24,302 nt of DNA from a virus, in IMG/VR virus record IMGVR_UViG_3300020595_001797, positions 1-24,302 of that record. One strand, 5' to 3'. The position numbers were made by a program, and so were the translations under genes. The notes under the pieces were generated by a model. That model searched no databases and was not told where the DNA came from. It worked only from the letters and a program-made list of their open reading frames with translations. Positions 2,660-7,654 of the stretch are shown here, piece by piece (positions within the stretch are counted from its first letter, which is position 1; each line of letters starts with the position of its first letter).

Positions 2660-2684
2660 CAAACGCCGATACGTATTGTATAAT
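2656..2684 (+). promoter_or_regulatory. Sigma70-like promoter P2 with CGTA spacer motif
   Basis: TTGACA (2656-2661) and a perfect TATAAT (2679-2684) are 17 nt apart. The spacer contains CGATACGTAT, like P1, with CGTA at 2672-2675, 3 nt before the -10 box. It overlaps the stop codon of the HNH-like gene and drives the ABC-GNAT pair. Confidence 0.88.
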
Positions 2685-2708
2685 AGGGTAAACCAAACGG
2701 AGACAAGC

Positions 2709-3365
2709 ATGAAATTAAAAGTTAGAGTAGAACAAGATGAATTCACAGCAAGAGTCGCACAGGCTTTTGATCTGGATTTTGATGGACTTATCGAAACAGA
2801 GATTCCTGATTTTAAGTTTCCACCATACAATTCTTACAACATAGGATTGGTTGTGGGATCAAGTGGCAGCGGTAAAAGTACCCTTTTGAAAAAGGGTTTG
2901 TGGTGGGATAGTCCAGAAATGAAAGCTGCGTCTGCCAGCGAAGATGGTATATTTAACTGGGAACACAACAAAGCGATTGTATCTCATTTTGATAGTCCAG
3001 ATGAGGCCATTGAAAAGCTACATGCTTGCGGTCTTGCGTCAGTACCTACGCTATGCAAGCCGTTCCATGTATTGAGTAATGGCGAAAAGTATCGTGCGGA
3101 ATTTGCTAGGATGCTAGAGGATGATTTGGTTATGGACGAATTTACGAGCGAAGTAAATCGCGAAACAGCAAAGAGCCTCTGCGTAAGTGCCAGTAAATAT
3201 ATCCGTAAGAAAGACCTAAAGAATATTGTGCTTGCATCTTGCCATAAAGATATAATTCCTTGGCTACAACCTGACTGGGTATTCGACTGCGATACAGGTC
3301 AAAAGTTCGAGAACGACAACGTAAAAGAGAATCTCAACCGAGTTGCTAAGATAACGATAGGATAA
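2709..3365 (+). CDS. ABC-type ATPase (COG2401-like), split from its GNAT partner
   Basis: This 218-residue protein has a complete ABC ATPase core: Walker A GSSGSGKS (50-57), signature LSNGE (122-126), Walker B LVMDEF (140-145) and H-loop H179 in ASCHKD. It has no membrane segment, so it is a soluble ABC ATPase and not a transporter component. COG2401 describes ABC ATPases fused to an acetyltransferase domain; here the two parts are adjacent genes 3 nt apart. An in-frame ATG at 2676 lies within the promoter, so translation must start at ATG 2709 (GGAG at 2699-2702). The pair could modify a nucleic acid or a translation component, but the substrate is not known. Confidence 0.82.
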   Translation: MKLKVRVEQDEFTARVAQAFDLDFDGLIETEIPDFKFPPYNSYNIGLVVGSSGSGKSTLLKKGLWWDSPEMKAASASEDGIFNWEHNKAIVSHFDSPDEAIEKLHACGLASVPTLCKPFHVLSNGEKYRAEFARMLEDDLVMDEFTSEVNRETAKSLCVSASKYIRKKDLKNIVLASCHKDIIPWLQPDWVFDCDTGQKFENDNVKENLNRVAKITIG

Positions 3366-3368
3366 GTT

Positions 3369-3881
3369 ATGTTTGACAAACCACAGTTAGAATTAGATGT
3401 TTACGAGATACCCAAGGACTTAAAAAGTAAGTATTGGGAGATATTCAAGAAGCATCATTACCTTGACGGTGCTATCAACAAAGGTGCTAGGTGTTGGGTT
3501 GCATACCTCTGGGGCAATCCTGTGGCCTTTAATTCTGTCTTAGCTATGCCAAGCGGATCGCTGAAGCGAGCGTGGCGAGAGCATCGTTTGGTTGTTTTGT
3601 CGGACTATCAGGGGATGGGCATAGGAAGTGCCATGAGCGAGTGTGTTGGAGAGATTTTACTGTCAGAGAACAAGAGATTCTTTTCCAAGACTGCAAACAT
3701 AAAGCTAGGTTCTTACAGAAATAGTAGACCACAATGGCGACCAACCAGCAAGAATGGAATCGCAAGAAAAGACCATATAAAAAGCACCAGAGAAAATTAC
3801 AACAATATGGTTAATAAAAAATTGTCTTTACGGGTATGCTACTCCCATGAGTATTTGGGATGCCAAGAAAATATTATTTAA
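3369..3881 (+). CDS. GNAT-fold acetyltransferase-like protein, partner of the ABC ATPase
   Basis: Residues 73-88 (RLVVLSDYQGMGIGSA) match GNAT motif A, the acyl-CoA pyrophosphate loop (Q/R-x-x-G-x-G/A). An N-terminal KHHYLDG (28-34) and a later NSRPQW segment resemble the acetyltransferase part of COG2401. GNAT-fold phage enzymes also include the Mom DNA-modifying protein, so DNA-base modification is a possibility but not shown. The gene starts 3 nt after the ABC ATPase stop, under the same promoter, so the two products are likely made together and may form a complex. The C-terminus is Lys/Arg-rich, compatible with nucleic-acid contact. Length (170 aa) fits a single GNAT domain. Confidence 0.75.
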   Translation: MFDKPQLELDVYEIPKDLKSKYWEIFKKHHYLDGAINKGARCWVAYLWGNPVAFNSVLAMPSGSLKRAWREHRLVVLSDYQGMGIGSAMSECVGEILLSENKRFFSKTANIKLGSYRNSRPQWRPTSKNGIARKDHIKSTRENYNNMVNKKLSLRVCYSHEYLGCQENII

Positions 3882-6315: not shown

Positions 6316-6774
6316 ATGAAAGTCTATGTTGTTATCTCAATAGAGCAAGAGAAAAATTTTAAGGTTTCGAGCATAGAGCCTCTAGGTGTCTACTCTGACT
6401 TTGAAACTGCTATGGAATACGTTGACAAACTGCAAGGTGCTAGAGACGCAATTTATCCAACAACCTCCAAAGAAAATAAAGAAGTGGTTTTTGATGTTTT
6501 TGAGTTCGAAGTAGACAAAGAGCCAATTTTACTTTCTTACTTGAAGTCACAGGAAAACCTCGTAAACGCGATGTTAGACAAGACTATAGAGAACTTAATG
6601 AAAGACGGACTGATAGAACAACTTATTGGGGAAGATGGACGTTTTTACTACGAGCTTACGAAAAAAGGGAAAGGTAAGGCTAAGAAATTGAAAGACTTAC
6701 TTTCAAAAAATCCTCGGTGGAATGAAGATTCTTTCCGAGATTTTATTGACGACGAGGACTATGATGAGTATTAA
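6316..6774 (+). CDS. Hypothetical protein with possible winged-helix C-terminal part (152 aa)
   Basis: The start directly follows the previous stop, with CTGGAG upstream. The N-terminal 65 residues (MKVYVVISIEQ ... EFEVDKEP) look like a small alpha/beta domain with a strand at each end. The region about 80-120 (IENLMKDGLIEQL, then GRFYYELTKKGKGK) has the helix, turn and beta-hairpin pattern of a winged helix, so a nucleic-acid-binding role is possible. The tail is very acidic (RDFIDDEDYDEY). The next gene starts inside its 3' end. Family not firmly recognised. Confidence 0.6.
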   Translation: MKVYVVISIEQEKNFKVSSIEPLGVYSDFETAMEYVDKLQGARDAIYPTTSKENKEVVFDVFEFEVDKEPILLSYLKSQENLVNAMLDKTIENLMKDGLIEQLIGEDGRFYYELTKKGKGKAKKLKDLLSKNPRWNEDSFRDFIDDEDYDEY

Positions 6775-6964
6775 TTGTGCTGAATGTGGAAAAACGTGTG
6801 ACCGCTTGCTTGAGTACAGATGTAGAATATGTGAGGAAGTTTACTGTGAAGAATGTTCGCTAAAACATTTCGGCTTAAAAGAATGTAAAGGCAGAGTGTA
6901 TCAAAAAAATATAATTAAAAGTTTATTCTGGATGCTACACAAAAAGTTTTTCAGAAAAGATTAG
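6764..6964 (+). CDS. Small Cys-rich zinc-binding protein (66 aa)
   Basis: Cys pairs CAEC, CRIC and CEEC, with further Cys and a His (SLKHFGLKEC), suggest one or two zinc sites of a treble-clef, RING or B-box-like finger. The C-terminal part is basic and aromatic (KSLFWMLHKKFFRKD). An ATG at 6761 and one at 6764 are both possible; GAGG at 6754-6757 spaces better with 6764. It overlaps the previous gene by 11 nt and ends 3 nt before the tRNA-Gly gene, so the tRNAs and tmRNA are probably cotranscribed with it. Likely protein or nucleic-acid adaptor; no function is assigned. Confidence 0.6.
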   Translation: MSINCAECGKTCDRLLEYRCRICEEVYCEECSLKHFGLKECKGRVYQKNIIKSLFWMLHKKFFRKD

Positions 6965-6967
6965 TTA

Positions 6968-7038
6968 GCCACTATAGTTAAACGGTATAACTGCTGATTT
7001 CCAATCAGCTATTCGGGGTTCGATTCCTCGTAGTGGCT
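6968..7038 (+). tRNA. tRNA-Gly(UCC)
   Basis: The acceptor stem GCCACTA pairs with TAGTGGC (7031-7037), with discriminator T, usual for bacterial tRNA-Gly. D-arm GTT/AAC, anticodon stem GCTGA/TCAGC with loop TTTCCAA (anticodon TCC) and T-arm CGGGG-TTCGATT-CCTCG are all present. CCA is not encoded. It reads GGA codons, and the 71-nt length is normal. Confidence 0.93.
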
Positions 7039-7041
7039 CTT

Positions 7042-7115
7042 GGCTCTGTAGCATAATTGGTTAATGCACTGGACTGTCGATCCAGCGATTGCCGGTTCGA
7101 GTCCGGTCAGAGTCG
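7042..7115 (+). tRNA. tRNA-Asp(GUC)
   Basis: The acceptor stem GGCTCTG pairs with CAGAGTC (one G-U) and the discriminator is G. The D-arm is GCAT/ATGC-like, the anticodon stem is CTGGA/TCCAG around CTGTCGA (anticodon GTC), and the T-arm is GCCGG-TTCGAGT-CCGGT. It lies 3 nt after tRNA-Gly and immediately before the tmRNA acceptor piece, so processing of one transcript would release all three RNAs. CCA is not encoded. Confidence 0.94.
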
Positions 7116-7213
7116 CTCCCTTCGGGGATGGAGTACGGCAAGTGCTATGATTGTAGACGTTGTTATGGGAGATTATTAGGGACGGGAGGGGCAGTTCCTC
7201 CCCGCCTCCACCA

Positions 7214-7384
7214 GAAGCACACCACAGTGTGTAAACCGAAAGACTGATTTCGTGGGCGTTTCGGGGTATCGGACTATGAACCGAGTTAGCCATGCACGTA
7301 TTGCCTAATCTTAGGAAACGTGAGAGTCTAATAGCTGGTAAAAATCCAGAAAGTCGCAGCGAGATATTATGGTGTGTTTCTGAC
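7214..7384 (+). other. tmRNA intervening segment (removed spacer) with extra structure
   Basis: This 171-nt stretch lies between the two mature tmRNA pieces. Its ends pair: GAAGCACACCA (7214-7224) with TGGTGTGTTTC (7370-7380), 11 bp with one G-U, extending the acceptor helix for processing. Inside are the hairpins CCGAAA/TTTCGG (7236-7241, 7259-7264), CACGT-CCTAA/TTAGG-ACGTG (7295-7322) and CTGG/CCAG (7335-7338, 7346-7349). No protein-coding signal is seen on the + strand. Confidence 0.75.
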
Positions 7385-7477
7385 GGGGGCGAAATAGATT
7401 CGACCTGTAATAAGAAGTAACAATTGCAATCCGTAGTTGACAGAAGGGCTACGTTAAAAATCTGTTAAATGTTAATT

Positions 7478-7507
7478 GCAGAACCTAGTTTCGCAATGGC
7501 AGCGTAA
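7478..7507 (+). other. tmRNA tag reading frame (predicted AEPSFAMAA)
   Basis: With GCA at 7478 as the resume codon, the frame reads A-E-P-S-F-A-M-A-A and stops at TAA 7505-7507. The C-terminal Ala-Ala matches tags recognised by ClpXP. The resume codon is inferred from position after PK1 and from the common GCA resume codon; an in-frame ATG lies three codons upstream. Confidence 0.65.
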
Positions 7508-7561
7508 GCTGTCCGAGGTTCCTATACCTTGTCACCCAACATAGGCAGTTTTTATGCCCAA

Positions 7562-7590
7562 CCGTTTTCTGTAAAAAAACGGGGATTTTA
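7562..7590 (+). terminator. Possible hairpin closing the tmRNA transcript
   Basis: CCGTTTT (7562-7568) pairs with AAAACGG (7576-7582) around CTGTAAA. The following GGATTTTAG is only a short T run, so this may be a weak terminator or a structural arm of the coding piece. Confidence 0.35.
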
Positions 7591-7654
7591 GTGTACTACC
7601 TAATTCTATCGAATCTGCATAATGAAAAACTTTTGTAAAAATCTAAAAAACCGA

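Follow-up and report, generated by a model that had tools for sequence, protein, structure and literature searches.

The window analysed here, the whole of a 24.3-kb viral contig, carries a permuted, two-piece tmRNA gene in which the acceptor piece lies upstream of the coding piece, and the two pieces together complete the acceptor stem and the P2 helix (Table 1). The initial annotation, made from the sequence alone, had placed a permuted tmRNA beside tRNAs at 7117-7590; the gene is indeed there, behind a tRNA-Gly and a tRNA-Asp, and its coordinates needed refining at the encoded CCA, at the spacer between the pieces and at the start of the coding piece. The ribonucleotide reductase is nearest to those of the phage Mosig and of cyanophages (∼55%), and the close relatives are all metagenomic contigs. 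Elsewhere in the window, two adjacent ORFs (2676-3365 and 3369-3881) correspond to the two halves (3-193 and 200-353) of the 357-residue phrog_11143, one half being ABC-ATPase-like and the other acetyltransferase-like.

Table 1. Features of the permuted tmRNA locus, in window positions
Feature	Position	Strand	Evidence	Remarks
tRNA-Gly (TCC)	6968..7039	+	ARAGORN, RF00005	directly upstream of tmRNA
tRNA-Asp (GTC)	7042..7116	+	ARAGORN, RF00005	directly upstream of tmRNA
Acceptor piece	7138..7213	+	Rfam, folding, covariation	mature 5' end putative
P2, 3' strand	7149-7180	+		in acceptor piece
T-arm	7184-7202	+		in acceptor piece; loop GGCAGTT
Acceptor stem, 3' strand	7203-7209	+		
Discriminator A	7210	+		
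Encoded CCA	7211-7213	+		
Intervening segment	7214..7384	+	folding z -2.7	predicted absent from mature RNA; without open endonuclease gene
Coding piece	7385..7546	+	Rfam, covariation, nhmmer match 7385-7546	3' end approximate; also holds tag frame, P5 and a second 3' hairpin/pseudoknot
Acceptor stem, 5' strand	7385-7391	+		
P2, 5' strand	7404-7431	+		
PK1	7432..7466	+	covariation	
PK1 stem 1	7432-7436/7449-7453			CGTAG/CTACG
PK1 stem 2	7439-7444/7461-7466			GACAGA/TCTGTT
Tag reading frame	7478..7507	+	sequence, tag comparison	AEPSFAMAA + TAA
P5	7498-7503/7508-7513			around tag stop; tetraloop

The identification rests on covariance models, folding and covariation. When the whole window was scanned with cmscan (Infernal with Rfam 15), the permuted tmRNA model RF04321 matched at 7149-7507 with 89.3 bits (E 3e-16) and the alpha_tmRNA model RF01849 at 7138-7529 with 65.5 bits, both above their gathering cut-offs (47 and 50 bits, respectively), as the initial annotation had anticipated for the Rfam permuted models. 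ARAGORN reported two tRNAs in the window and missed the permuted tmRNA, and was therefore rejected as a test for the presence of a tmRNA. Unconstrained folding of 7117-7600 (z = -3.8, with none of 100 shuffles equally stable) recovered the 7-bp acceptor stem (7203-7209 with 7385-7391), the T-stem and a P2 helix in three blocks (7149-7155/7425-7431, 7159-7166/7417-7424 and 7172-7180/7404-7411). The acceptor stem and three-block P2 that the initial annotation had drawn are both found by folding, and these helices, PK1 and P5 all covary.

Covariation was assessed across 30 related permuted phage sequences, in which two-sided changes were seen at 6/6 pairs of the T-stem, 7/8 pairs of P2b, 3/7 pairs of the acceptor stem, and 4/5 and 5/6 pairs of PK1 stems 1 and 2; the absence of covariation in P2 and the acceptor stem, which would have spoken against the gene, was not what we found. 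Each tested helix is paired in 85-99% of cells, a level that no shuffle reached, with the proviso that such shuffles are inflated by kinship among the sequences; a control with slid partners, which retains this relatedness, gave less pairing in all helices.

The tag reading frame, downstream of the covarying PK1, encodes 9 residues from GCA to GCG, followed by a TAA that sits in the P5 tetraloop, just where the initial annotation had put the tag stop. In all phage permuted genes tested, the tag ends in A[LMIV][AV]A followed by an in-frame stop. Since the helices covary and the tag ends are kept across related phages, the gene is a maintained one, and we are very confident, on sequence grounds, that the locus holds a functional permuted tmRNA, with ribosome rescue as its predicted function.

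We collected 80 related loci by a search with the SSB gene downstream of the tmRNA. Among the best 50 of these 80 SSB relatives, RF04321 exceeds its cut-off in 28, usually flanked by the same upstream genes and by SSB, and RF01849 in only 9; a standard, one-piece tmRNA exceeds the RF00023 cut-off in 25 of 50 related records. Both gene orders thus occur in one phage group, and in one relative (L033) a standard tmRNA occupies the site equal to that of the permuted gene in the window, with shared upstream genes for a 152-residue and a zinc-finger protein and shared downstream genes for a 60-residue protein, a 103-residue protein and SSB. The two forms are mixed on the SSB tree (4 changes), which makes exchange at the level of the locus likely; for the same reason we rejected the use of this tree for timing the permutation.

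So far, permuted tmRNA has been attributed to three lineages of bacteria, and we know of no explanation for its origin. The gene in the window is probably not simply an alpha, beta or cyano gene taken over from a host: when we compared the phage genes with the standard genes of E. coli and 13 other bacteria, with six beta permuted genes and with alpha-type permuted genes, the nearest sequences were the standard tmRNAs of sister phages. Indeed, the nearest sequence is a phage standard tmRNA for 30/30 permuted phage genes (200/200 column bootstraps), and the mean best identity of the permuted phage genes is 0.66 to phage standard genes, 0.57 to bacterial standard genes, 0.54 to beta permuted genes and 0.53 to alpha permuted genes. 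The tags agree, in that phage permuted tags resemble phage standard tags and not ANDERFALAA or alpha tags; tags are even shared across the two gene orders: VEENFALAA (standard in L133, permuted in L024), and AEPSFAIAA and AEPSFAMAA. Since all 30 genes are nearest to a standard phage gene and not to an alpha or beta permuted gene, the permutation probably arose in phages.

The trees are consistent with this proposal and leave its details less certain. On 188 columns, the permuted phage genes are nested within the standard phage genes, while on 227 columns all phage genes, including that of Mosig, lie to the same side of a 97/100 branch with no resolution of their internal order, so that the standard phage genes form a grade in one tree and a clade in the other. 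AU tests gave P values of 0.06-0.28, none of them significant. Because these tests are non-significant and the two trees disagree, the direction and the place of the permutation are favoured only; going from standard to permuted would be the easier direction, as the standard phage genes have an extra 3' region that is missing in the permuted genes. In addition, two standard-order tmRNAs (L055 and L056) are placed on a long branch among the permuted ones, which could be a reversal to the standard order or a misplacement.

We considered whether the permuted gene was instead acquired directly from a bacterium (an alphaproteobacterium or a beta-type proteobacterium), as was proposed for Melnitz and SAR11 phages, and is unrelated to the standard tmRNAs of the sister phages. 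Several features point this way: the alpha_tmRNA match in the window is over the cut-off, the beta_tmRNA model scores 83.6 bits in L040, just below its cut-off of 84, and a GGGG...CCTTATTACCMAA element after the tag is common to beta and phage genes. The AU tests likewise reject neither a single clade of phage and beta permuted genes (P = 0.06 and 0.16) nor one of phage and alpha genes (P = 0.23 and 0.15). The window also has an alpha-like T-loop (GGCAGTT; likewise alpha-like in L048 and L037) and an alpha-like 5' end (GGGGGCGAAATAGATTCGAC), and part of its tRNA-like domain may therefore have been exchanged. Nevertheless, for every one of the permuted phage genes a phage standard gene is closer than all of the bacterial references, whether alpha, beta or other, the tags fit those of the phage standard genes, and L033 has a standard tmRNA at the same site, and we consider direct acquisition from a bacterium rather unlikely. 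Descent of the window's permuted gene from a phage standard tmRNA is the reading that we favour, as probable on the sequence comparisons.

The segment between the two pieces is very variable. In the window the spacer is 171 nt (174 including the CCA) and forms a structured hairpin, with an outer 12-bp helix (AGAAGCACACCA/TGGTGTGTTTCT) that continues the acceptor stem, as it does in Mosig and L051. Rfam gave nothing convincing for a group I intron, ribozyme, riboswitch or tRNA in this spacer (E up to 5). Measured after the discriminator base, spacers in the relatives range from 5 to ∼618 nt. Three loci (L048, L046 and L037) have 5 nt, many have 12-17 nt, some have 33-174 nt and others 588-618 nt. 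The 5-nt spacers consist of CTTAC only, with no encoded CCA, and the acceptor stem would thus be closed by a predicted 6-nt loop. In seven phages with alpha-type permuted tmRNA (L005, L006, L008, L010, L011, L014 and L018), whose contigs are near-identical, the ∼165-nt spacer has a putative 52-codon ORF with an AAGGAG resembling a ribosome-binding site and a stop within the mature tmRNA (GGGGGCGAAATAG), as in the HNH genes described below. One spacer (L027, 6281-6407) holds two ∼55-nt direct repeats (AAAGTTGGGTCAGGGTTCCCA...) and gave no convincing Rfam match, and one coding piece (L060, within 6666-6880) carries a perfect inverted repeat (TGGAATCCACTATTTAAGTGGATTCCA) inserted in a PK1 loop.

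The 588-618-nt spacers hold an intact gene for a 176-185-residue HNH/endonuclease-VII-like protein (phrog_3322), with matches to phrog_3322, phrog_1035 and phrog_3118; we found neither a Pfam match nor a meaningful solved-structure relative for this protein, and its AlphaFold model (pLDDT 40) was unusable. The stop codon of the gene lies within the mature coding piece, usually as ..CGG GGG TGA.., and at the start of the cassette the acceptor 3' strand is repeated in truncated form, together with a TATAAT-like promoter. This second copy was rejected as a working acceptor, for in L114, where the 5' strand has changed, only the first copy has changed with it (GGGCGUG/CACGUCC). One relative, L047, retains a scar of the two cassette ends only, and L055 and L056 retain the cassette 5' end after their standard tmRNA. 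We also rejected the idea that the window spacer is what is left of such an HNH gene, as we saw no similarity between the two and the spacer, unlike the L047 scar, does not retain both cassette ends. An HNH endonuclease ORF at 2288-2659 of the window belongs to phrog_3322 (78 bits), like the spacer endonucleases, and has no adjoining tmRNA.

Searching IMG/VR with the endonuclease protein yielded 13 loci, in 11 of which (9 distinct) the gene lies between the pieces of a permuted tmRNA; in the remaining two it lies directly 3' of a standard tmRNA (L118) or near one on the other strand (L117). The parents of two further loci (L126 and L138) have a standard tmRNA with the same endonuclease family immediately downstream (profile scores of 173 and 196 bits). 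None of the family was confirmed in bacterial genomes among GTDB contigs, and homologues in two crAss-like phages are not beside tmRNAs. A different HNH-like type (MFRFxDNFGRS...HHIxPY) lies directly after the 3' end of the standard tmRNA in L069 and L087, and thus more than one endonuclease family may favour the tmRNA 3' site.

The distribution of sequence identity around these genes suggests that they are mobile. Pairwise dN/dS among the endonucleases is 0.10-0.35. In one pair of loci (L101 and L102) the endonucleases are ∼100% identical, the tmRNAs 83% identical and the outer flanks unrelated; the near-identical block starts at the T-arm, spans the endonuclease and reaches the P2 strand of the coding piece, and divergence begins in PK1. 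In a second pair (L099 and L100) the endonucleases are 81% identical in DNA and the tmRNAs 63%. Near-identical endonuclease blocks with co-converted tmRNA flanks in unrelated surroundings are the mark of homing, and we think it likely, from these patterns of identity, that the spacer endonucleases home, with an endonuclease activity that we infer. Some relatives have the family in the spacer and others immediately 3' of a standard tmRNA, and it would take the flanking tmRNA along when it moves; homing with co-conversion would also account for the mosaic tRNA-like domains.

These observations allow a more specific, and more tentative, proposal: that the two-piece tmRNA had a separate origin inside the virus lineage, in which an HNH homing endonuclease 3' of one-piece phage tmRNAs promoted a permuting tandem duplication or recombination, landed in the resulting spacer and now spreads both the permuted arrangement and mosaic tRNA-like domains. 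We regard this as possible, though doubtful.

With respect to function, the permuted tmRNA would presumably be transcribed with the two upstream tRNAs and be processed as a tRNA is, by RNase P at 7385 and by 3' processing at the CCA, with removal of 7214-7384, so that the acceptor and coding pieces remain, joined through the acceptor stem and P2. With alanine attached, and with the help of host SmpB, this RNA would release ribosomes that have stalled, appending the degradation tag (A)AEPSFAMAA. We found no SmpB in 33 related records, five of which measure 120-174 kb, and the use of host SmpB is therefore presumed. The RNA may also replace host tmRNA or compete with it, as the initial annotation suggested, and would depend on host SmpB for this. 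As a whole, the observations are best explained, and we believe fairly likely to be explained, by a working permuted ssrA of a marine-type, T4-like phage, yielding a two-piece RNA that rescues ribosomes with host SmpB, derived from a phage standard tmRNA and, in relatives, giving an HNH family a home in its spacer.

The lack of SmpB in the phages would also be compatible with a gene repurposed away from rescue, for example as a leader of the tRNA cluster, as a decoy for SmpB or alanyl-tRNA synthetase, or for selective tagging of host proteins; the very variable spacer and the 9-residue tags, which lack the ANDEN start of bacterial tags, could be read in the same way. However, the tag end, PK1 and all helices of the tRNA-like domain are kept, as ordinary trans-translation expects, and we consider repurposing improbable. 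That the gene is a dead or decorative copy, either a decaying fragment or the remnant of a phage integration site, is very improbable: ssrA is a common integration site and tmRNA fragments are known in prophages (PMC9004378), but this gene is complete and covaries in dozens of divergent phages, has an in-frame tag with a conserved ALAA-like end and an encoded CCA in the window, and is surrounded by phage genes, with SSB as a neighbour.

A working permuted ssrA of this kind has several implications. Because both gene orders occur in one phage group, once at the same site and with closely similar sequence, the transition from standard to permuted becomes traceable. The spacer, presumably discarded from the RNA, acts like an intron, also in that mobile genes make use of it, and homing with co-conversion provides a mechanism for tmRNA mosaicism. 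The gene is further support for phages keeping their own trans-translation RNA while using host SmpB.

The initial annotation took a permuted tmRNA in a phage to be unusual; there is precedent: 53 two-piece tmRNAs were counted in 18,146 phage genomes, mostly aquatic (PMC9004378), and the tmRNA database paper in which RF04321 was built counted 79 phage tmRNAs (PMC11915505). Phage-borne permuted tmRNA is thus already known; new are the presence of both gene orders in one phage group and the spacer endonucleases, for which we found no published description in permuted tmRNA spacers in a partial search of the literature. The phage genes share with RF04321 and with the alpha (RF01849) and beta (RF01850) types (PMC11915505) an acceptor piece that comes first, the same acceptor/T/P2/PK1 architecture and the tag frame; they differ in being nearest to phage one-piece tmRNAs, in their 9-residue tags and in their spacers of 5 to ∼618 nt, which hold protein genes in some relatives. 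Like the tmRNAs of Melnitz and Pelagibacter phage Mosig (PMC9004378; MT647606), the gene in the window is phage-borne, marine and permuted, with a short tag (GEDNFALAA in Mosig, whose annotated SsrA scores 93.6 bits with RF04321) and a hairpin spacer that closes on the acceptor stem. The Mosig gene has thyX and a late-transcription accessory gene as neighbours, whereas that of the window has a zinc-finger gene and SSB, and the two-piece tmRNA of Melnitz was explained as a SAR11 type acquired from the host (PMC9004378), whereas the sister phages of the window have one-piece forms. Finally, the endonuclease-bearing relatives resemble tmRNA group I introns with LAGLIDADG endonucleases (PMC11915505), in that a selfish endonuclease gene lies in tmRNA sequence that is missing from the mature RNA; in these relatives, however, the gene is HNH/endonuclease-VII-like and lies in a permuted spacer that is presumably removed by tRNA-type processing, and the spacer of the window has neither an Rfam intron nor an endonuclease.
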